From Glomus cerebriforme (Eukaryota > Glomeromycota > Glomeromycetes > Glomerales > Glomeraceae): a DNA stretch of 64,000 nt. Below, in pieces: positions 1,960 through 55,489 of the stretch. The first letter of the stretch is position 1. Each line of letters starts with the position of its first letter. Under the pieces are notes generated by a model that did no database searches, was not told where the DNA came from, and saw nothing but the letters and a program-made list of their open reading frames with translations. Both the position numbers and the translations under genes were made by a program. The stretch lies in NCBI GenBank assembly GCA_003550305.1, contig QKYT01000103.1:156021-220020 (forward strand), given 5' to 3'.

Positions 1960-4504
1960 ACATCTTTATAAGTACACGCACCTAGGACTAGCCATGCACA
2001 TGCACTTATAGAAGGTGTGCACTTATAGAATAACTAATAGAAAAACAGATTTTATTACACAAATTAAAATCTAATAAAACTTTAAAACTTTATTTTATTT
2101 AAGCAGTATTTATTTAAACTGATCTAATTGTATATGTATTTAAACTCTGTGTATTTTTATTTAATTTTCTAATAAACAAAAACAACATATTTTATGAAAA
2201 TAGAATTACTTTTTAATGAAAATATATGTTAATGTCAGTTTGTCACATTAAGCCTGTCTTTTTGACCTTAAGAAATTTTTTAATTTTTCTCACTAACTTT
2301 ATATAATCTTCTGCATTGTTCTATTAAAGTAGTAATATACCTACAGTTTCTAAACTAGTAATTGCTACACTAGAATTAATAATGGGAATTTTATTATTAT
2401 CATTCATTTAATCATTTCATCTAAATCCATATTTTTCTTATCAGTATTCTTAAAGAGATACACAAGTTTTTTGATAACTTGATCATCTTTGAGAACTTTA
2501 TAAACAACATTCTCTTCTGGTATATTAAGAAACTCTTCTGCCTGTATTGGATTGAAGAGATTAAAGGCTTGAAATGAATCTGCAAGATCAGTAAGTACCA
2601 AGTTTTCATTTTGATGAATATCTTCTGTAGTATTTCTAAAATCTATAATTGCATCAGAAAGAATTTTTGTATGACGCCAGCAATTACTAATTATTTTGGC
2701 ATTAACCTCATCCCAGACTTGAATAATAAACTGAATTGCCTGTAAGACATTAATGCATAAATCCTCTGCATGGTTACCTGCTTCTACATATTGCAACATC
2801 AAACTTTTAAAAATGAATAGTTAGGTTTAATAATTTGAATACTAAAATACATAACAAATTTAATAATTTTACTTACTGTATATGAGAATGATGATAGTGT
2901 CTTTTGAAAGACATAATTATTCTGGTGTCCATTGGCTGAATTTTTGAAGTTGTATTTGAAAGCAAAAAATGGACATCAGTGTATTGTAAGGTAAGGCCAA
3001 CTAGCTTATGGCTGGAACAGTTATCAAGGAGAAATAACATATGTTCACCTTTATGTTTTAGACCAACTTAATGATTAAATTCCTAAAGTTACTCTTGAAA
3101 GAGCGATGCAATTATCCAGGCTTTAGTATTATTATGATATGTCATTGACATGGTTTGGATTCTTATATTTTTAAAGCAGCGCAATTTTCTAAATTTCCAA
3201 TAATTAAAGGTTTTAATTTGTGTGAACTATCAGCATTTGCACACAATGTAACTGAAAGATGTTCTTTATTCACTTTACGCCTGGCAAGATGTTTTGTTGC
3301 AAGAGTTTGATCAGGTTCTAACCTATAAATTATCAATACTTATGCAAGATAAGTAAGATAAATTTTTGCATCTTTTTTTTATTTCAAGAATTTACCTATA
3401 AAAAAGTCCCGTTTCATTCATATTATAGATTTTTTCAAGAGGATAGTTGAAACAATGTTCTCTTAATAAGGGTAAAGCATCAGCAATAGTGGTTTCATCA
3501 GCAGATAAAGCTTTTCCTTTAAGCTTTTGTTGGCGAATTCCATTGTGATCCTTAAACTTATGAAGCCATCTTAAAGAAAATTGTAATGCATCTTGAAAAA
3601 TATCTAATCCATTGGCAATCATTTTGGCTTTTTCAATAAGTATTGCATTACTTAATACCGTTTGATACTGGTAGTTTAAAATGAATTTCTTGAAAGCAAA
3701 CTCAAGTTCTAAATAGGTAACTGATTTATAGTGCTTTGAATTTGAACTGATAGTTTCTGAATCAAGTTATTCTTCTGCTGTTTGTAGAATACAAGTAATA
3801 GTGCTCTTATTAACTCTAACGTTCCAAATCCAGTTAACATACTGAGCCCGAGTTCTTTTATTATCTCGAGCATAAACACAAAGTTCTCTCTTTTGAATTT
3901 CAGAAAGTGTGGTTCTTTTAAGAGACATTTTTAGGATGTATATTGCTGATTTTATATTATTAAATAATGGTAAATCATCATTTTTCTATCCTTATAAATA
4001 CATAACAGAATCCAATAATCTACTTTTTATTCTATGGGAGTTTGTTTATATATTGACATGCACAATTTCCTTGTAAATATACAAAATATTCCCTGACTAT
4101 ACTAATTTGGGATTATCAATCAAGCAAGATTTTCATACTTTGTGAATATTGTAATTACATGATATAAAATGAATTTATAATTTTATTTTTAAAAAATTTT
4201 ATTTTAAAGTTTCAAAATGAAATAGTCAGAATGAAATTATACAGTATGATACACAAATTTATTTTAATTAAACTAATTTAAAAATTAACCGTGATAAAAC
4301 AGTTGTTAATGATTGGTCAACTATATGTAATTATTATATAAATGCACTTATAGAGAATATTCTAATATATCCAGAACTCAGAATTACTTGCACATGCAGA
4401 ATATAGAGGGAGTGCATTTAGCTCTAAGTTGTAAGCTTAGGACTAAATTATGGTATGCATATAAAGAGGGTGTGCACTTATAGAAGGTGCACTTATAAAG
4501 GTAT
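1960..4504 (-). mobile_element. Pogo/Tigger-like DNA transposon, 2.5 kb, TA flanks
   Basis: A complete but decayed element. The ends form imperfect terminal inverted repeats: the left end carries CTTTATAAGTACAC and the right end, read in reverse, CTTTATAAGTGCAC. TA dinucleotides lie immediately outside (1958-1959 and 4505-4506), as expected for Tc1/mariner/pogo insertion. Both subterminal regions also share a TGTGCACTTATAGAA motif. Inside, on the minus strand, lies a CENP-B/jerky-type transposase pseudogene (2404-3928). The TIR match is short and diverged, so exact ends could be off by a few bases. Confidence 0.8.
2404..3928 (-). pseudogene. Decayed pogo/Tigger (CENP-B-like) transposase with two introns
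   Basis: Reading the minus strand from ATG at 3928, the N-terminus (MSLKRTTLSEIQKRELC) resembles the CENP-B helix-turn-helix. It meets one in-frame TAA, then continues in frame through the second DNA-binding region and the first catalytic block (NMNETGLFYR). A GT..AG intron of about 70 nt follows, then RLEPDQTLAT and LCANADSSHKLKPLIIG, a frameshifted stretch, LLDNCSSHKL (second catalytic Asp) and IQPMD. A second intron at about 2812-2876 joins into the C-terminal VWDEVNAKIISNCWRHTKI segment typical of Tigger proteins. The family uses a DDE/D catalytic triad for cut-and-paste transposition. The stop and frameshift mean this copy is dead, although both introns remain recognisable. Confidence 0.82.
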
Positions 4505-38201: not shown

Positions 38202-38481
38202 ATTTTACATCATATATTGTCACAATTGTATGTAGTTATATTGATTTATTTTTTTAGTTTTTGTTTTAACTATTTTTTCTTTTGAATAGTATTAAGACTT
38301 TCTCTCTTGGTCCTCAAAACCCTCTTTTAAACATTATAATGATTGAACAAGTGCACCTTAATGTGTTTATATACCTATATCTCGATAGTGCATTATGGAA
38401 TATATCAAAAATACATTACCAATATGGAAAAATTCCATCCTGAAATCACGTTAATAAAAACTACGCTGATAGTACTGGTTA

Positions 38482-39290
38482 GTATTACGATTTATTAATT
38501 CATTAATTCACGGATTCATCTAATTTAAATTTTATTCAGATTATCCAGATGAGTTTCAGATGAATAATAAATGATTTGACAGATGATCTGGATGATCTAT
38601 TAAATAATTTTTTTTTAATTATTGTTAAGAATTTTTTTATACTGAATATATTGGATACTTTGGGAATAAAAATCAAAATGATGCTTAAAGAAAAGAAAAG
38701 AAAAAACATTAATAAAATAAAAATAAAAAAAATAAATTTCCTTTATTAAAATTACCTTCAAAGTAGTTTCAGAAGGTTCAAGCTGATATCTACAAAAAAA
38801 GAAAAAAGAAGAACGTTAATAAACATTTTTAAAATAAAAATAAAAAAATAAATTTCCCTTTCTATTGAAATTACCTCTAAGATTGTTCCAGAAAATCCAA
38901 GCTGAAATCTATAAGAAAAGAAAAAAAAAGAACATTAATAAATGTTCTTAAAATAAAAATAAAAAAATAAATCTTCTTTTTTCTATTGAAATTACTTTCA
39001 AGACTGTCTAAACTGAAATCTATAAGAAAAAAAAGAGAAGAATTTTAATAAAACATTCTTAAAAATTTTAAGTCTTAATAGTTATTATACAATTATCTTG
39101 AGACTAAAAAGAAAATTTTAAGTAAAAAAAAAGAATTTTTTTTAAAAAAAAAATATGATTCAGATCATTCAAATTATCTGCATCTGACAGATATTTAAAT
39201 CAGTAAAGAATAGATTTGCAGATCTATTTCAGATATTCAGATCATTTCAAATCAGATTAGCAGATCATAGATTCATTTGAATCATAATAC
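38482..39290 (-). mobile_element. Family D TA-flanked element with intron-like array (minus orientation)
   Basis: Ends GTATTACGATT (left) and, in reverse at the right, GTATTATGATT are inverted and bordered by TA (38480-38481, 39291-39292). Subterminal regions are rich in CAGAT/ATCTG words. Read on the minus strand, the centre (about 38640-39075) has roughly four or five units: pyrimidine tract, TAG, mini-exon of about 35 nt such as one starting ATATCAGCTTGAACC, GGTAATTT, then an AACATTTATTAATGTT-type palindrome. The sequence of the mini-exon is unrelated to family A, but the order of signals is the same. Confidence 0.65.
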
Positions 39291-39919
39291 TAGTATTGGT
39301 TTTATAACTAATGCCAATAAATTTCAGTTTGTTTATGTGAAAGATTTAAGATCAATCATGAAGCAAAAAAAAGAGATCTTTAATAACAAAAAAAATAATC
39401 AATAATCTGAAAAGTTTATTTTTAAAAATAGTAAAAAAATTAATCAAAACCTAAAGATGCTTACTGAAGAAGCTTTTATATTTGGTGGGCAGAGTTTTTG
39501 CCTCTGATTTTATATTACCTTGATTTTTGTGGTATATTTTTTTCTGTCAAAAAAGTTAAACTATGAAGAAGTACAATCATTATTAATATTAATTTAGATA
39601 AGTATCGATTAAATGAAGTAGATAACATTAATTTACTTCAGGAATTTTCTGAAATGCAAGATTTCGTATACTTTTACAAATATGTATTGAAATAAGCAGT
39701 AAGTATTAATGAAGGATATTTGTATTATGAACTTTAAATATCTACTAATATTACGTTCTGTTTATATTTTAGTTATTAATTCAGGATAGTGTAATTTACT
39801 TTAATAAAGCAAAAATCACCCTTAAGAATGTTATATACAGAAAGTCTATTTCAATTAGATGAAACAGTTTTGTAAGATTATAGATCTGTATTTGTGCACA
39901 TGATTTTTATTACCTATTA
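39291..39919. other. AT-rich interval, nothing recognised
   Basis: No coding-like frames or known repeats seen between the family D element and the small MITE. Confidence 0.4.
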
Positions 39920-42450: not shown

Positions 42451-43758
42451 TAATACTGATTAACAGCATTATATTGTAATTGCATCTAAATAAAAATAAT
42501 AATGTATTGCAACATAGTTATCTAGAATAATATGACAAATTGATTTCATCAGTATTGTTGGTAGAATTACAATTTGTATGCACACGAATACATGATTTTC
42601 ATTTATTGATTGGAATTAATATTTCTAGCAGATGTATTATAGTATTGACACATAAATTTATTAATAAATAAAGCTTTTAATATGATATTTTATTATGAAA
42701 ATCATGATGTATTTTTGCTAATCATTATGATTTCATGATGAAAATTGCATGATTTATTATCCAATTAATACAATACATTTAGTATGGTTTATCTTAAATA
42801 GTATTACATATTTTTGCAGTAATTTATTCTCTCAAAATTTTGTTTCTTCAGAAGTAAGACAGAATATTCTTTTTAATAAATATTTTTCAAAATCAATTCA
42901 TCAAATCAGTTAAATAATCATATGTATGAATCCATCCTAAAATCTTTGATTAAGAAGGTAATTTGCGTAATATATAAATATATAATAACATTTAATCAGG
43001 TATATTCTGATTTACTAGTTAAATTACCAGCTTTCTTAAAGGCATAGATATATCTTACATCATGGAAGCATAATCCATTATTTGAAAAAAGACCAGTGAA
43101 ATTAATTCAATTATAGAGATATTTTTAAAATATGAAGTTATTAGATATCAAAAAAGATTAATATACCAGAGATAAATCTAAAATTGATCAGAATACCCAA
43201 TATCATTATTATTCAAAGAAATATTAACCATATATGTAGGTCCCAAATTGATAATATCACTTGTAATTATGAAAAAGAAAACAATTATCATGTTATGAAT
43301 AAACTTAATTTGCAATTCATGAAAAATAGAAAGATCGATATTAGATAGTGATTAGTGAAGTATTTTAACTATAATTTATATATTGCTAAATTAAGCAAAG
43401 CACCTCTAACTTGCATTATGATAATTTTAATTAGTATTACAAATAATTTAACTAACATTAATTGCAAAAAAATGGGCAAAAAAATATAGCATATCTTATT
43501 ACTTTATCATATCCATAATCCCCAGCCAGTGATTTTAATAGTAAAATTTAATAAAAATATCTAATTGCATAATTTCAGTCCTTATTTAGAATTTGCAATT
43601 TTGAAGATATTCTTATAATTTTTTTATGGAAGGTAGCCAGAAAGTCATAAATTAATTTATTATTTTTAAAGATCCAAAATGATTATCAAAATATGTTAAT
43701 ATTTGTCAGAATATAGATACTAATAAATTAAATTATAAAATTGCCTTACTGATCACTA
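42451..43758. other. AT-rich interval without supported gene
   Basis: AT-rich sequence with fragments that could be relics of the Rhizophagus gene families (for example around 43000-43300), but no continuous frame or motif can be followed. Confidence 0.35.
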
Positions 43759-44927
43759 GAGGTATGCTCCGGTAAAATCCGTTCAATCTGTCATCTGTTT
43801 TTGAACGAATTGGATAATCTGGATTAAGAAATGAACAGATTTTGGATAATCCAGATGGATCCGTTGAATAATACCAGATTGATCAGATATTATACAGATA
43901 ATCAGATTGACCAGATTGATCAGATAATCTGGTCAAATCTGGTATTTTTTTTTATTTTTTTTTGTTTTTGTTTTTATTTTAATACACAAGAACATTTATT
44001 AACATTCTTTTTTNTTCTTTTTTGTAGGAACGAACACTTCGGCTCAGCTCCTGGAGGTAAATGGGATAAAAAGGGGGTAGTGAGGTATTTTTTTATTAAA
44101 CTTTAATACAAGAACGTTGCTAACGTTCTTTTTTTTTCTTTTTTTTAGGAACAAATACTTCAGCTCGACTCCTGAAGGTAATTGAAGGGGGTGGTTATTA
44201 AACTTTAATATAAGAACGTTACTAACGTTCTTTTTTTTTCTTTTTTTGTAGGAACGAACTCTTCAGCTCAACTTCTGAAGGTAAATGGGGTAAATGAGGA
44301 GGTGTTTTTTTTTATTTATTATACAAGAACATTTATTAACGTTCATTTTTTTCTTTTTTGTAGGAACGAACTCTTCGGCTCAGCTCCTGAAGGTAAATAG
44401 GATAAATGGGATAAATGGGGAGGTGTTTTTTTTATTTTATTATATAAGAACGTTTATTAATGTTCATTTTTTTTTCTTTTTTATAGGAACGAACTCTTCA
44501 GCTCGGCTCCTGAAGGTAAATTGGGTAAATGAGGGAAGTTTCTTTTTATTTTATTATACAAGAACATTTATTAACATTCATTTTTTTTTCTTTTTTTGTA
44601 GGAACNAACTNTTCGGCTCAGCTCCTGAAGGTAAATAGGGTAAATGGGGTAAATGGGGAGGTGTTTCTTTTTTATTTTATTATATAAAAATGTTACTAAC
44701 GTTCTTTTTTTCTTTTTGTAGGAGTGACTACTTCACCCACCTTCAATTACAGTATAAAAAATCTGGTAAATCTGGTAAATTTGGTGATATAAATGGATCA
44801 TCAGATTGATCAGATATCTGTTGAACCATCCGGTCAATCCGGTGGTACAAATAGATCAATCTGAATCTGATCAATTTTTGAATAGATGACCGGATATCCA
44901 GATTGGCCAGATTTCAGAACATACCTT
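43759..44927 (+). mobile_element. Family A TA-flanked element, complete copy (1169 bp)
   Basis: Left end GAGGTATGCTCCGGTAAAA and right end, in reverse, AAGGTATGTTCTGAAATC are short inverted repeats. TA borders both (43757-43758, 44928-44929). A left subterminal region of about 180 bp and a right one of about 180 bp, both full of CAGATTGATCAGAT/CTGGTCAAT words, enclose about seven intron-like units (about 43960-44720). No protein-coding capacity. Ns at 44014, 44606 and 44611 fall in the array, probably assembly uncertainty. The array frames at 43831-44106 and 44294-44638 are repeat artefacts. Confidence 0.82.
43960..44720 (+). repeat. Tandem array of about seven intron-like units
   Basis: Period roughly 100-125 bp. 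Each unit has a mini-exon close to GAACGAACTCTTCGGCTCAG CTCCTGAAG (29 nt), then GGTAA, a spacer, a palindrome such as GAACGTTGCTAACGTTC, T/C tract and TAG. The loop of the palindrome gives CTAAC or TTAAC, matching a fungal branch site about 25 nt before the TAG. Confidence 0.85.
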
Positions 44928-45495
44928 TACCGATTACTAATATAGATCTTTTCATTTTTTACAAATTGCGAATTAATATTATTCTTTATTTTAGTATTAT
45001 ATTAAAAATTAGTAATTTATAAGAATGTGTAAGTTACTTCAACAATATGAAAAAATCAATTAAGATAAGTATAAAACATATGATACAGANCAATATGAAA
45101 AAATCAATTAAGATAAGTATAAAACATATGATACAGATAAATATAATGCATATATTGCAGATTTTATATTATTTTATTGGTTTAAATTTTAATATTGTTC
45201 TTTATTTTAGTATCATATTAAAAATTAGTAATTTATAAGAACGTGTAAGTTACTTCAACAATACTAAAAATCTAAGTATAAAATATATGATGCAGATAAA
45301 TATAATGCATTTTATTATTTTAAATTTTAATTTTGTTTTCTTTTTTTATGTAAGTAATTTTAATGATATTAAAAATTAATGAAATTAATACAGTTTCTAG
45401 ATTTTTTAAATAAGTATAAAAATATATAAAATAACAATTTTTTATTTTTTAATTTTATATTTTTTTCATTTTATATTTTTTATATTTTTTTAAAA
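44928..45495. repeat. Local tandem duplications next to the family A element
   Basis: A 47-bp segment starting CAATATGAAAAAATCAATTA is present twice in a row (about 45044-45137), separated by one N at 45090. A longer unit (about 44965-45050) containing TTAGTAATTTATAAGAA and GTGTAAGTTACTTCAACAAT recurs at about 45200-45265. The exact copy at the N may be an assembly artefact. Confidence 0.6.
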
Positions 45496-47856: not shown

Positions 47857-49893
47857 CATTGGGGAAATTTTAGAAGCGCAGAATTGCGAAAATCTGTAAA
47901 ATTTGCAGATTTCTGCTTTTTTTAATAAATATCTGTGCAGTTCTTCAAATAAAGTTTTTAGAAAAAATCTGCAATAATCTCTAATATTGCAAATTTGTAA
48001 AAAACTTTATGTAAAAAGCTTTGAAGATTTTATTTTATTCTGATAAACTTCAGTTAAACTATTATTTAACTGTTTTAAATTTTAGGTTTTGAAGTTTTGG
48101 ACAAAATTGGTAAGTTCTCCAAACTTCATGTTTAATCTGCGACATGCAGATTTTTTTCTTTTTTTTTTATTAATTTTTGCAGGACTCCGAACAGACTGAA
48201 CTTCTCTCATTATCTCCGGACTTTACTTTCAAAGATAAATAAAGTATATATATATTATTAAATAAATGTTTACTAACATTCTTTTGTATTTTTTTAGGGT
48301 TAGAAGTCAAAATGTAAGTTCTGAACTCCCCATTTCAAAGGTAATAACTTCAAAATTATATTTTTTTTTTTTTATTTTTTTTTATTAAATAAATATTTAC
48401 TAATGTTTTTTTTATTTTTTTAGGTTCCAGAAAACTAAAGTACAGCTCTGGACTTCCATTTCAAAGATAAGACTTCAAAATTTTTGTTTGTTTTTTTTAT
48501 TAAATGAACGTTTACTAACGTTCTTTTTGTTTTTCTTTAGATTCCAGAAAACTGAAGTACAGCTCCGAACTCCCATTTTGAAGGTAATAACTTTAAAATG
48601 AATTTTTTTTTATTTTATTATTTTTTTTATTAAATGAACATTTACTAATGTTCTTTTTATTTCTTTAGGTTTAGGAAGTCAAAGGACTCTATTTTTGAAG
48701 GTAATTTTTTAAAATTCTGTTTTTTTTTGTTTTTTTTTTAATTTAATGAATGTTACTAACATTCTTTCTTTTGTAGGTTTGAATTTTCAGGTATAGAACT
48801 TCAAAATAGATTTGTAGTGAAGGAGGAGGAGTATTAAAAGAAATGTTACTAATGTAACATTCTTTTTTTTCTTATAGATTCAGATTCAACTTGAACTTCG
48901 AAGATTAGGACATCAGCTTCAGAATTTGATTTAGACTTCGAAGGTTTGTATCAGAGGAGATATAATTTTTTTTATTAAAGAAATGTTACTAATGTAACAT
49001 TTCTTTTTTTTTGGAGGACTTCGGCTTCAGATTCAACCTAGACTTTAAAGGTTTGTATCAGAGAGATAGAATTTTTTTTATTAAAGAAACGTTATTAATG
49101 TAATATTTCTTTCTTTTTTGTAGAACTTCAGCTTCAGATTTGACTTCTTGGACTTCAAAATTGAAAGTTTTTTAGAGTTATCTACTTTGTTTTTTTTAAT
49201 GAAATGTTTTACTAATGTTTCTTTTCTTTTTTTTATAGGTTCTTCCGGGCAGTACTTCAAAGGTATATCTTCAAAAAATTTTTTATTTTTTTTTTATTTT
49301 TAATGAAATATTACTAACTAACATTTCGTTATTTTTTTTTGTAGGTTCTTCCGGGTGGATTATAGGATTTTGATAGTATAATATCTTCAAATTATTTTTA
49401 ATTTCTTTTTTAACAAATGTTAATAACTAATGTTTATTATTTCTTTTTTTTTGTAGATTCTTTTGGGTGTGAGTATGTAGGATTTCAATGAAATATCTTA
49501 GTTGTTTGTTGAAATTGAACTAACTGAAACTATGTTCAAAATATTAACAACATGTAAAGAAAAAATCAAAGAATAGGAACTTAGTTTTTTTGTAGTTTAA
49601 TTTGTAAATATATTTGACTGTAATTAATAAAATTAATAAAGCATAAATTACATTATACAACTAAAAAGTGATATATATAAAATGTATAACTAAAATATTT
49701 TGCAGATTTATCTTTTTCTTCAGAAATTTTCGCAGATTTTATCTTAAATTTTTTCGCAGATTTTTTGACTCTTGGAGATCTGTACAAATTTTCTTAACTT
49801 TTTCCTTCAGCGCATGTCGACAGGTTCGCAGAACTGTGCAAATTTTTATACTGCAGAATTGCGCAGTTCTGCACCTTAAAAATTTTGCCAATG
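47857..49893 (+). mobile_element. Family B TA-flanked element with intron-like array, 2.0 kb
   Basis: Left end CATTGGGGAAATTTTAGAAG and right end, in reverse, CATTGGCAAAATTTTTAAGG are inverted and bordered by TA (47855-47856, 49894-49895). Subterminal regions contain many GCAGA/TCTGC words, one long region at each side. The centre (about 48240-49480) has around ten units with palindromes such as GAACGTTTACTAACGTTC, T-rich tracts, TAG/TTAG and mini-exons such as one starting ATTCCAGAAAACTGAAG, ending AAGGTAAT. No transposase. A partial relative of the right end lies at 58066-58250. Confidence 0.75.
48240..49480 (+). repeat. Tandem intron-like array of family B
   Basis: Roughly ten units of about 100-125 bp. 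The palindrome plus CTAAC/CTAAT core, T tract and TAG recur. Mini-exon sequences drift along the array from GTTCCAGAAAACT-type to TTCGGCTTCAGATTC-type to TTCTTCCGGG-type, so adjacent units are most alike, as expected from stepwise tandem duplication. Confidence 0.75.
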
Positions 49894-50296: not shown

Positions 50297-51600
50297 TTAA
50301 TTTTTATTATCATCTATTAATTTTTCTTCATCATTGGTTTCTTCTTCTTCTTCTTTTTCTTCATTATTCTCTTCTTCATCATTTATAAAAGATGTTTGAG
50401 TAACTATTTTTTGAATTTCTTATTCTGATAATTTGTAATTAATATTTGATTTATAATAAGAATGCATTCGAGACATATTTTGCAATAATTCATAATTAAG
50501 ACTAAAATTTTAAAATAATTATTTAGTAGTTATTATAATATAATTTAAAATTTGCATTTGCAATAATTAATAAATAAATTAATTAAAAAAACTTACCGTA
50601 ATTGGCGCTTGTTCATATACCAACCTAAAACAGAAAAAATACATTCACAACTGGCATTGTGTAGTATTATTGCATTAATTAATAAAGCAAGTTGTTGGAT
50701 ATGATTTTTTTTTTGTTTACACATTAACTACCAACTTTTAATAGTATAAATTTCAAATACAAATTCAAAATTATATTGATATGGTTCATTTTTAATAGAA
50801 TAATTTGTTAATTACGTAATTAATTTACTGGCAGAGCTGCTTCCTTTTCCTATTCCTTTTCAAATTAATAATGCTTTTTTACAAATTATTCAAAAAGTAT
50901 TTACTTGTAAGCCAGTGTCTAAAAATTAAATAAAATAAATTTATTAAATAAGATAAAATAAAATCAATTATATTATTTTAAAATATTTATACCTTGATAT
51001 TTTGGATGTAAAAAATAAGCAAGTAAATATAGATCAAAATTAAATTCTTGCCATCTTTTATCAAAAATTGCTTGACATTGAAAATAAAAATTAATAGGTC
51101 CAGTTTAAGATAATTCTTTTATAGTTGCAGCCATAATTACGAGACAAATAAAACAATCTGCTAATGTAGTACTTTTATATTCAAATATTACAACAGCTTT
51201 CTTAATTGAAGTCAAAATTAATCAAAGATCTTCTATATTATGAAAAAAATTGCGACGTTGGACAATATACAATATTTTAGTATTGAACAATTGTGGTTGT
51301 TCTTCAATTAACTAAATAAATAAAAAAAAATAAAAAGATATATTAGTTATTATATACAATATAATTTAACAAGTATTTTAATTACAAAATACTTATATTT
51401 TTAATTGATTCTTGATATTGGATAATTGAATTAGTACAATCAAAGGCAGTTATCTATCTTGTTTTAACATGCTTTTTTAAGCCACCTCCTGATATCATAT
51501 TTTTTACAATATTCATTTTTAATAATTCACCAGCTTTATGTGAATTTGTAAATAATTAACAATTTTTTTACATTCACCAATTAGTTTGGATGCCCAATTT
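50297..51600 (-). pseudogene. Decayed hAT-family transposase (C-terminal half)
   Basis: On the minus strand, pieces in order are HKAGELLKMNIVKNMISGGG, TAFDCTNSIIQYQESIKN, LIEEQPQLFNTKIL, KKAVVIFEYKSTTLADCF, ELS, stop, TGPINFYFQCQAIFDKRW, FDLYLLAYFLHPKYQG, ASCECIFSVLGWYMNKRQLR and a Glu-rich tail ending at TAA 50297. LHPKY and the CECIFSxxGW...KRxLR region correspond to the RNase H-like/dimerisation C-terminus of hAT transposases. Many stops and frameshifts. The 5' part is interrupted at 51602 by a family A element; the reading may resume at about 53130-53220 (DYLSDRNITELLHHIM). Confidence 0.7.
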
Positions 51601-51732
51601 AGAGGTATGTTCCAGTAAAATCCGTTCAATCTGTCATCTATTTTTGAACGGATTGGATAATTCAGATTAAGGAATGAACAGATTTTGGATAATCCAGATA
51701 GATCCATTGAATAATACTGGATTGATCAGATT

Positions 51733-52216
51733 ACTGGTCAAAAACTGATCTATCTTACAGATATCTTATAAATATCAGGTACCCAAAATGCAGAAAATCT
51801 GCTATACATCGAGTATTCAATATGTATATTATAGAATTAAAAAATACAATCTATTAATTATCTCGCTATCCAGTAATCATAAAATGATAAAATATAGCTC
51901 ATTCAATTCGCCTCACTGAGACGTATCGAATGGTACTAATTTCGCATTTCTAGGTGTGATAGATGCTGAGATATTTGATAAATCGTAAAAAAACAAACAA
52001 AAAATGCAATATCTCGATATCTATCACACCTAGAAATGCGAAATTAATACCATTTGATACGTTTCAGTGAGACGAATCGAATGAGCTATATTTCATCTTT
52101 TTATGATTACTGGATAGTGAGATAATTAATAGATTGTATTTTTTAATTTTATAGTATATATATTGCGTATCCAATATTTATAAGATATCTGTAAGATAGA
52201 TCAGTTTTTGACCAAT
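51733..52216. mobile_element. Foldback element, copy 2, nested in family A
   Basis: About 480 bp, with arms that are near-perfect reverse complements around an AT spacer near 51985-52010. Termini ACTGGTCAAAAACTGATC and its reverse complement (with ATTGGTC at the right tip) match the element at 7005-7535 over nearly the whole length. It interrupts the left subterminal region of the surrounding family A element. Confidence 0.85.
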
Positions 52217-52309
52217 GGATATTACACGAATGATCAGATTGACTAGATTGATCAGATAATCTGGTCAAATCTGGTATTTTTTTTTTTATTTTTTTTTTTG
52301 GTGATGTTT

Positions 52310-52925
52310 TTTTTTATTTTAATACATAAGAATGTTTATTAACATTCTTTTTTATTCTTTTTTTATAGGAACAAACTCTTTAGCTTAGCTCCTGGAGGTA
52401 ATTGGGAGGATATTAAACTTTAATACAAGAATATTGCTAATGTTCTTTTTTTTTCTTTTTTTTAGGAATGAACACTTTGGCTTGACTTCTGGAGGTAATT
52501 GAAGAGGAATGGTTATTAAACTTTAATATAAAAACGTTGTTAATGTTTTTTTTTTGTAGGAACGAACACTTTGGCTCAGTTCCTAAAGGTAAATAGGATA
52601 AAAGGGGGTGGAGAACGGAGGTGTTTCTTTTTTATTTTATTATACAAGAACATTTATTAACATTCATTTTTTTTCTTTTTTGTAGGAACGAACTCTTCAG
52701 CTCAGATCCTGAAGGTAAATGGAGTAAATGGAAGCGGAGAGAGGTGTTTCTTTTTTATTTTATTATACAAGAACATTTATTAATATTCATTTTTCTTTTA
52801 TTTTTTGTAGGAATGAACTCTTCGGTTCAGCTTCTGGAGGTAATTGAAGGGGGGTGGTTATTAAACTTTAATACAAGAACGTTGCTAATATTTTTTTTTC
52901 TTTTTGTAGGAATAACTCTTTACTC
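52310..52925 (+). repeat. Tandem array of about six intron-like units
   Basis: Same unit design as 1-960 and 43960-44720: GGTAA, palindrome with CTAAC/CTAAT or TTAAC loop, T/C tract, TAG, mini-exon starting GAACGAAC or a C/T-changed version. The 111-codon frame at 52621-52956 simply reads through three units. Confidence 0.82.
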
Positions 52926-53299
52926 ACCTTCAATTACAGTATGTAAAGTTTTATAAAAAAATCCAGTGGATCCAGTGAATCCGGTGATATAAATGGATCA
53001 TCAGATTAATCAGATATCTGTTGAACCATCCGGTCAATCCAGTGGTATAAACGGATTAATCTGAATCTGATTAATTTTTGAATGGATGACTGGATATCTG
53101 GATTAACCAGATTTTGGAGCATACCTTTAGTTCTTACATAATATGATGTAATAATTCTGTTATATTTCGATCAGATAGATAATCTTTTTTTTTAAAAAAA
53201 AATTATCAAATATATTTTTAATTAACTCTAATCCCTACCCTTAACTCTTTCAGAATATCTATTTTTTTTATAAACTTCTAGTAAGTTAAAAATTCTGAA

Positions 53300-54215
53300 A
53301 TGTTTTGAGAAATATTAGTATAACGAGTTAACAACTAATATTTTTTTATTTTTGTAGGAACGCAAATGTCTTGGTTTAGCTTTAAAAGGAACATTAGTAT
53401 AATGATTAACATTACATCTTTTCTTTATTTTGTAGTGAATGTAGAATGGCTTTGGGTGAGTTGAACTTTGGCAAAAAGGTTTAAGAAATGTTAGTATAAT
53501 AACTAACATTTTTTTTTCTTTATTTTGTAATCAATACAAAAGTTAATCAGAATAGCCTTTGAAACTTATCTAATGAGCTGTAATTTGACAAAGAGGGTTT
53601 AAAAAACATTAGTATGATGACTAATATTTCTTATTTCTTTATTTTGTAGTGAACGGAAAGGCCTTACTTAAGGACTCTTAGGTGAGTTGTAATTTGGTGA
53701 AGGTAATTTAAGAAATATTAGTATGATAACTAATGTTTCTTATTTCTTTATTTTGTAATGAATAGAAAGATCTTGCTTAGGAACTCTTGAGTTAGTTGTA
53801 ATTTGGCAAAGGTGATTTAAGAAACGTTAGTATGATGACTAATGTTTCTTATTTTTATATTTTATAGTGAATGGAAAGACTTTGTTTGGAAACTCTTGGA
53901 TAAGTTATAATTTGGTAAAGGTGGTTTAAAAAATGTTACTATGATGACTAATGTTTCTTATTTCTTTATTTTATAGTGAACGGAAAGGCCTTGTTTGGAA
54001 ACTCTTGGCTGAGTTGTAATTTGGTGAAGGTGGTTTAAGAAACGTTAGTATGATGACTAATGTTTCTTATTTCTTTATTTTGTAGTGAATGGAAAGATCT
54101 TATTTGAAAACTTATTTTAGGTAAGTTGTAATTTGGCGAAGAGGGTTTAAGAAATGTTAGTATGATAACTAACATTTCTTATTTTTTTTATTTTGTAATA
54201 AACATAAAAAGACCT
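53300..54215 (+). repeat. Family C tandem intron-like array
   Basis: About nine units with a period near 108 bp. Each has a palindrome such as AAACGTTAGTATGATGACTAATGTTT, a TTATTTCTTTATTTTGTAG acceptor-like tract and a mini-exon of about 53 nt beginning TGAA(T/C)GGAAAG and ending TTTGGTGAAG, followed by GTGG or GTGA. The inner loop contains GACTAAT, a fair branch-site match. I could not find clear terminal inverted repeats. The flank at about 54290-54450 has GCCAATGGCAAAATATTTTG sequences resembling family B ends. Confidence 0.7.
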
Positions 54216-54678
54216 TGAAAACGGTGGGAATAGGATCTGGTATGTTGGATTTTGTCAAAATATGCAGAGCGAGGATGATTTATTGATTATCTGATATGCA
54301 TCTGATTGGCTATAAAGTTTCGCAGCAGTTTTTTCATTTTGCAATTGTTAAAGTTTTGCCAATGGCAAAATATTTTGTCAATAGTTTTAACTTCACTATT
54401 TGAAATTTCACTATTTCGCAAAATTCAAAATAAGTTTTGCCCAGAAACCTTAGCCATGTAGAAGAAATAATCAAGAAAAAATAATCATGTATATTGACTT
54501 AGATATTATGTATCACAAGCTACATTCTGATCCTATGTATTTATTTTTGCATATATTAATAAAAAAATAATGATATTTTTTTTTGGCAAAAGTGATTGAT
54601 ATGAAGAATTTTCTTTCATATATATAAAAGTTTTTTATTATTTTGAATGCTTATGTATAGTATATAGTTTTATAAATC

Positions 54679-55028
54679 ATGCCATCAGAGCTTGAATTAT
54701 TGAGATAATGCATTAGCAAGCTTAAGACCAAAAATGTTAAGTTTGAGGCTAAGAAGATTAAGATTGAACCCAAGAATGCTAAACTTCTAAAGCGGTTTAT
54801 GGAGAAAGATACCAAATATAATACTGAAAATGCTCAACTTAAGTCTAAGATCAGAAAGAACTTGAAAGCAGAATTAAGAAGTTGGAAAAAAGTAGAGCAT
54901 ATACTGCTACTAAGAATGCTAGGTGTAATAATGAGATTTATGAGCTTAAAGCTAAACTAGCAAAATTAAGGCGTAATATCAATGAATTTAAAAAAGAATT
55001 AAAATCTAAGAAAAATTGCAAATTTTAA
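54679..55028 (+). pseudogene. Decayed short coiled-coil gene (MPSEL family)
   Basis: ATG at 54679 starts MPSELELLR, then an in-frame TAA, then CISKLKTKNVKFEAKKIKIE with regular Lys/Leu/Asn heptads, later frameshifted. I remember a large Rhizophagus family starting MPSELELLRQRISELEAEN. Relative to that remembered form, the changes here (Glu to Lys, Gln to stop, Arg to Cys) are the kind produced by G-to-A and C-to-T substitutions. Non-functional. Confidence 0.5.
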
Positions 55029-55489
55029 ACTAGATGCATTCAGATAGCTAAGGGAATTTTTAATGAAGAGCCAAATAATTGAGTATCATTCTCCTTTTTT
55101 AAATGGATTAAAGCTTGATGCTTTCTTCCAAAAATATCAAATTGCATTGGAAGTGCAAAGGGCTCAGCATCAGCTTCATAGCACTAGCTGGTATAAAAAA
55201 CTCAAGGATATTGTTGATCATGATCAGTGAAAATGATGCATATGCCAGGATAATAAAATTTTTCTTATTGAGGTATGGTATGACCAAAATCTGAAAATTG
55301 TTATTCCAGAAAGGATATGAAAAATTAAGAAGTTTGTTTGTCTAGCTTTGATTTCTTATACTGTAAATCTGTAATTAACAACTTATAATACGTAAATTCA
55401 CAAAATTTATCTTTGTATTTATTTTTTACATTATTGCTTATCATTATTTAATATTGTGCTGAAATCCCAAAAATTTCACTGCGCCTATA

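Follow-up and report, generated by a model that had tools for sequence, protein, structure and literature searches.

In the hAT superfamily, the short terminal inverted repeats start with TARAG. The non-autonomous (MITE-like) members of this superfamily are non-coding, occur in many copies, and combine such ends with 8-bp target-site duplications and subterminal repeats. All these properties are shared by the transposon described here, which we name element A; unlike that of hAT MITEs, however, its body is an array of intron plus mini-exon units. Tandem repeats inside a DNA transposon are also a property of foldback-type elements like Tetris and Galileo (PMC4079207, PMC4168063, PMC3573991). 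Tetris comes close to element A in that its target-site duplication comprises 8-9 bp (PMC4079207), compared with 8 bp in element A, and two of our copies (L054 and L075) possess arrays that are inverted at both ends. In contrast to foldback-type elements, most copies of element A contain a single array, whose repeats carry splice signals in a fixed order; the word intron is absent from the extract of the Tetris paper. Introner elements (PMC9860276) resemble element A in being derived from DNA transposons and in possessing terminal repeats, duplications, and splice signals. They bring one intron per insertion, whereas each copy of element A brings many introns and mini-exons; the extract of the introner paper mentions neither Glomero, Rhizophagus, nor mini-exon. 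Finally, the sister stwintrons of Hypoxylaceae (PMC8469720) are likewise sequence-similar introns which multiply in a fungal genome; stwintrons are nested introns, whereas the introns of element A are adjacent units separated by mini-exons. Two further papers concern other repeat genes (PMC8786786) and RNA-processing signals in human transposons (PMC10901741). We regard hAT MITEs, foldback-type elements with internal repeats, and introners as the closest known kinds; their combination, a transposon with tandem intron plus mini-exon arrays, is not described in the extracts of the literature that we searched.

The window, i.e. the whole stretch of 64,000 nucleotides of Glomus cerebriforme analysed here (contig C26), is AT-rich, with a G+C content of 17-33% per 2 kb. 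A myotubularin-like protein encoded in it reaches 75-77% in its best matches and, more weakly, matches named proteins that come mainly from Glomeromycotina and other early fungi, which places the host among arbuscular mycorrhizal fungi or their close kin. At positions 43757-44929 of its plus strand, it contains A2, a single copy (1173 bp) of the multi-copy, non-autonomous element A. The terminal pattern delimits a left terminal inverted repeat TAGAGGTATGCTCC (43757-43770, plus strand) and a right one TAAAGGTATGTTCT (44916-44929, minus strand). A comparison of the flanks identified the target-site duplications CTGATCAC (43749-43756) and CCGATTAC (44930-44937), which agree at six of eight positions; both differences are C/T. 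The sequence-only reading had placed the element at 43759-44927 and assumed insertion at TA. Both points had to be corrected: the bounds are those given above, the terminal inverted repeat itself begins with the TA, and 8 bp of target site are duplicated. Just past the element, a 48-bp direct repeat (2.1 copies, 96% matches) occupies positions 45043-45144.

In the core of A2, seven predicted introns of 74-94 nt alternate with six mini-exons of 29 nt, and a terminal exon follows the last intron, all on the plus strand. According to direct reading, the first predicted intron (43942-44027) begins in the subterminal region with the donor CTG/GTATTT. It is followed by the array (44028-44721), in which an intron comes after each of the mini-exons (44028-44056, 44149-44177, 44252-44280, 44364-44392, 44487-44515, 44602-44630). 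The succession of TAG, 29 nt, and GTAA was read directly six times and re-checked by script, and the motif search also detected the array; the earlier description as an array of intron signal sets plus 29-nt mini-exons is thereby borne out. The terminal exon (44722-44769), again read directly, lacks a GGTAA donor, and its end is not defined. Within each intron, GTAA (GTAT in the first one), a palindrome, a T-rich tract, and TAG follow each other. The palindrome of each unit, for example GAACGTTGCTAACGTTC, holds CTAAC or TTAAC/TTAAT; where the palindrome site was the one scored, the distance from the branch A to the AG is 17-27 nt. Donor, branch site, pyrimidine tract, and acceptor are arranged in this order on one strand, as in U2 introns.

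In order to assess how far this arrangement exceeds chance, the signals were compared with controls. The window contains seven tandem array blocks with units of at least 97 nt, namely three copies of A (A1 to A3) and the blocks B, C, C', and D. Sets of hairpin, branch motif, T tract, and YAG were found 38 times on the plus strand, 31 of them within arrays, whereas six Markov sequences contained 3-7 sets each and the reversed strand contained 5. On the minus strand there are 13 sets, two of which belong to array B; the 11 outside arrays are above the Markov range. Full sets including a donor occur in all seven blocks (A1 7, B 2, A2 3, C 3, C' 1, A3 4, D 3), as counted by a strict scan which undercounts units and misses, for example, three of six in A2. 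The controls gave a mean of 0.025-0.1 such sets per block with a maximum of 2 (200 Markov sequences each), and the reversed and antisense reads of the seven blocks gave none. The order of donor, palindromic branch motif, T tract, and TAG noted in the sequence-only reading is thus present and above the Markov controls. The hairpins of all seven blocks fold better than shuffled sequences (z-values of -2.1 to -5.3). The accompanying idea that the hairpin presents the branch site was not supported: the two branch-motif A residues are paired in the stem in six of the seven folds, beside the loop in five of them and a few pairs inside the stem in D, and are located in the loop in C' alone.

For a genome-wide comparison, 112.5 Mb on 1117 contigs were searched. 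The terminal pattern TARAGGTATGYTCY, inverted at both ends, matched at 79 + 69 places, versus 1 + 3 for a control pattern. From the loci retrieved, 46 copies were paired. Twenty loci were picked because both ends were among the first 100 pattern matches listed, the remaining ones partly by array likeness; at least three units are present in all 20 loci chosen on their ends alone. Two further copies are located on the plus strand of the window: one at 1-1174, cut by the window start (array at 153-699, right end at 1174 with one mismatch), and one at 51600-53129, identified by its ends and the signal scan and lacking a recognisable duplication (2/8). The best duplication length was 8 in 41 of the 46 copies, and the flanking 8-mers agreed at a mean of 6.41 of 8 positions versus 2.24 in a shifted control. 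The ends, which follow the TARAG rule, and the 8-bp duplication fit the hAT superfamily. Element A fits a non-autonomous hAT-like DNA transposon; ends and duplications were observed directly, and the enzyme would be of the hAT kind. These data support the earlier proposal of a mobile, multi-copy element with inverted-repeat ends and a core made of intron signals.

Leaving aside L054 and L075, we aligned 283 units from 44 elements, each of which contains 4-15 hairpins. A motif search in the same 44 elements detected 294 mini-exons, 243 of which possess both the AG and the GT border, and 244 introns between neighbouring mini-exons with a median length of 84 nt; because part of the borders was built into the search motif, these border and intron figures are biased upward. 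In 35 of 45 elements, a donor of the CTG/GTATTT kind stands ahead of the first hairpin.

The array could alternatively act as DNA, its palindromes and repeats being used, as in foldback elements, in recombination or to bind transposase, with the splice signals being incidental. Such a role is suggested by L054 and L075, which contain inward arrays at both ends, and by Tetris, which has terminal repeats, internal tandem repeats of ~220 bp, and duplications of 8-9 bp (PMC4079207). However, the array has one orientation only in 44 of the 46 copies, and the signal order is strand-specific in the seven blocks and does not occur in antisense. Units on both strands, with inverted tandem repeats at both ends as in foldback-type elements, were seen in 2 of 46 elements, L054 and L075, of which L075 contains a 5-kb N run. 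We consider a function at the DNA level quite improbable. At L054:1517-3461, one pair of ends encloses two opposed arrays of 5 and 6 units (strict motif).

Existing annotation provided indirect evidence on splicing. A peptide of 75 residues, obtained by joining the mini-exons of L047 in silico, matched three annotated hypothetical proteins of Glomus cerebriforme (E-values 8e-27, 4e-17, and 2e-5); a second search added a fourth one (2e-13). On spliced elements, the four proteins P0001-P0004 scored 75, 86, 58, and 89 bits, respectively; on unspliced ones, the scores were 37, 44, 42, and 43 bits. P0001 aligns without gaps to the in-silico spliced L074 over 52 aa, which comprise five whole mini-exons, and past this alignment it reads into the next intron-like stretch. 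P0002-P0004 align with spliced elements with gaps, and P0004 ends in residues encoded by the terminal exon. The first 60 residues of P0001 have their best match (87%) elsewhere in the genome, where a different continuation and then stops follow. These models show that an annotation pipeline read the array signals as introns. Signals and gene models together make it likely that the arrays are spliced. Because P0002 and P0004 deviate from a simple succession of units, the models may be gene-finder fits. The earlier claim that the elements donate mini-exons to transcripts has gained indirect support, since four G. cerebriforme models string mini-exons together. If the arrays are not spliced, the result is a warning for annotation: the models of G. 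cerebriforme already include transposon mini-exon proteins.

The same models bear on two alternatives. If the array coded for a protein, with three mini-exons making up each repeat, the stretches that are open over several mini-exons in P0001 and P0004, and the terminal-exon residues at the end of P0004, would be accounted for. However, stops occur in 80 of 257 mini-exons in the frame of the terminal exon versus 87 and 70 in the shifted frames, and terminal exons differ among copies by indels. As the frame is not kept, we rejected a protein-coding repeat gene; its probability is very small. Alternatively, element A might behave as a mobile intron in the manner of introners, being spliced out of host transcripts or donating mini-exons to them. 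P0001, which joins mini-exons to an unrelated N-terminus, is in line with this idea, as are the AG/GTAT at the 5' end of 42 of the 46 copies and the CAG at the 3' end of at least 23 copies (among the 12 commonest 3' ends). Against it, frame-shifting units of 29 nt would break the host frame, and 219 of 294 mini-exons are interrupted by a stop in frame 0. Moreover, after reconstruction of the empty sites of all 46 copies, a frame of at least 60 aa crossed the junction in 19 cases, and those that could be named belong to other mobile elements; no host-gene intron was seen among the 46 empty sites, for which long open frames across the junction were examined. We regard the introner-like alternative as unlikely. 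Regarding the sequence-only reading, which had proposed mobile arrays of potential introns able to be spliced out of a host transcript, the mobility of the copies stands, and the 46 empty-site frames did not yield host-gene introns. One of the cases that could be named is the copy of element A at L006:1499-2671, which sits inside a reverse transcriptase/RNase H frame with an 8-bp duplication (7/8).

Two larger loci allow an estimate of where the array came from. L075, a copy of 8.8 kb, is flanked by a perfect 8-bp duplication. Read from its right end, it contains subterminal repeats, an array, ~700 nt, and an ATG (MASENNQNEDNN..), after which the 5-kb N run begins; at the left end, a second array points inward. 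When the leader of L075 was used as a query, the only other good match was C496 (90% over residues 286-752 of the query, in pieces), and C751 matched weakly (68%). In C496, the array adjoins a degenerate element end. About 2.8 kb past the place corresponding to the ATG of L075, and on the same strand, C496 contains a degenerate hAT dimerisation domain (PF05699, 30.4 bits, E-value 3e-5), which is spread over two frames and has two stops inside. Based on these two loci, the likeliest origin of the array is a multi-intron leader between the element end and the gene. The occurrence of hAT domains near arrays was rejected as a general proof: within 6 kb of arrays, found versus expected numbers were 3 versus 1.7 for A, 1 versus 0.3 for B, 0 versus 0.6 for C, and 3 versus 0.6 for D, which for A is no clear enrichment, and the count for A includes C496, added because it was already known. 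In the gap between array and leader, both larger loci contain a similar, long pyrimidine-rich stretch that is almost devoid of AG (L075:7340-7540, minus strand; L076:1200-1351). This stretch is possibly a promoter or the tract of a far acceptor; if it is a promoter, the array would be outside the transposase transcript.

Our preferred explanation, to which we assign a probability of about 0.5, is that element A is a hAT-like non-autonomous transposon whose tandem, one-orientation array of introns and mini-exons descends from a spliceable, non-coding multi-intron leader. In a larger relative equipped with a transposase, the ancestral leader would have separated the gene from the element end, as L075 and C496 suggest. 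The signals and the Glomus cerebriforme models indicate that splicing of a transcript crossing the array would excise the introns and unite the 29-nt mini-exons. The array may have been amplified by tandem duplication of one exon-intron unit; because each duplicate brings its own splice signals along, splicing would stay intact as the array lengthens. The benefit would most likely be intron-dependent RNA accumulation or an escape from the silencing of intron-poor transcripts: in Cryptococcus, the mRNA level rises cumulatively with intron number (PMC3744415), and HUSH silences intronless mobile DNA, from which introns protect (PMC8770142). In favour of this explanation, we count the 79 + 69 versus 1 + 3 ends, the duplications in 41 of 46 copies, the signal order in seven blocks, the gain in score upon splicing, and the loci L075 and C496. 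Against it, we count that there is no clear conservation of signals and no covariation of hairpin arms, that the pyrimidine-rich stretch may be a promoter, that hAT domains near A arrays are not clearly enriched, that the gene of L075 is hidden by an N run, and that the models may be gene-finder fits.

The pattern of decay in present copies was analysed with regard to selection. Substitutions in element A are mostly C>T and G>A with a peak at CpG, and changes of the C and the G of the same CpG tend not to occur together (odds ratios 0.39 and 0.35), which is the pattern expected of decay by methylation. The donor G is changed in 5.7% of cases, the lowest value of seven sites in CpC context (others 12-25%). 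The acceptor G is changed in 10.3%, which is ordinary for its context (eleven others 3.6-39%), and the A/T positions of the signals are changed in 0-2.1% versus a median of 1.1% for mini-exon A/T. Apart from the low value of the donor G, the present copies offered nothing that speaks for selection on splice sites, and this candidate was dismissed. Compensatory changes were not found in the hairpin arms of A (odds ratios 1.23 and 0.78, p ~0.4). The sequence-only reading had named signal loss faster than neutral sequence as a finding that would speak against its proposal; compared with sites of like context, the loss is neither faster nor clearly slower. The present copies are mostly decaying passengers, and any function would have to be sought in source elements.

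These results are what one would expect if the array were a neutral passenger, i.e. if an exon-intron unit of an ancestral transposon gene had been duplicated like a minisatellite, so that splicing is possible and serves nothing. In addition to the lack of clear extra conservation of splice signals and of covariation, no frame is kept, and the range of 4-15 hairpins in 44 elements is that of a freely changing array. We deem this alternative distinctly possible, if tentative. Its difficulty is that the same arrangement recurs with other ends and other mini-exons, for which one accident is insufficient unless the arrays share descent.

This recurrence is seen in the other blocks of the window. 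Element B (38480-39292, minus strand; ends and signal scan) has the ends TAGTATTA.., an 8-bp duplication GTACTGGT / GTATTGGT (7/8), and mini-exons of 34 nt. Element C (47857-49893, plus strand; ends and signal scan) has the ends CATTGG..CCAATG beside TA and contains the blocks C, with mini-exons of 43 and 32 nt, and C', with mini-exons of 24 nt. Array D (53313-54217, plus strand; tandem repeats and signal scan) has mini-exons of about 20-35 nt; its element ends were looked for and not found. Compared with the 29-nt mini-exons of A, not only the lengths but also the sequences differ. Branch hairpin, T tract, and TAG, as judged by eye, closely resemble each other across A, B, and C (GAACGTT..TAACGTTC); the acceptor part is therefore perhaps common by descent. 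The hairpins of C' and D are longer variants. B, C, and D occur at many further places of the genome, the numbers being lower bounds, as 40 candidates were scored for each; the short C-end pattern was found at 8 + 8 places versus 1 + 3 in the control. At the level of anatomy, it is firm that at least three element families (A, B, and C) share this make of array.

A broader notion is that several transposon families of Glomeromycotina use strings of introns as a splicing disguise: a leader with numerous short introns and frame-shifting mini-exons would give them host-like RNA, a higher RNA level, and a shield against RNA- or chromatin-based silencing, with the array as selected cargo; we consider this doubtful. 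If splicing does take place, the arrays would be a source of introns and mini-exons which moves and multiplies by itself within symbiotic fungi. One could then test directly whether transposons are shielded from silencing by introns, and the arrays would illustrate how tandem duplication of an exon-intron unit can generate many introns at a time.

Two minor observations concern other parts of the window. The stretch after array D (54680-55220) is gene-like, rich in K, E, and N codons, and repetitive in the genome; that it is part of D was ruled out, as its copies sit at other places. The open frame at 3392-3766 on the minus strand encodes a DNA-binding domain of the Tc5 transposase type (PF03221, 24.6 bits).
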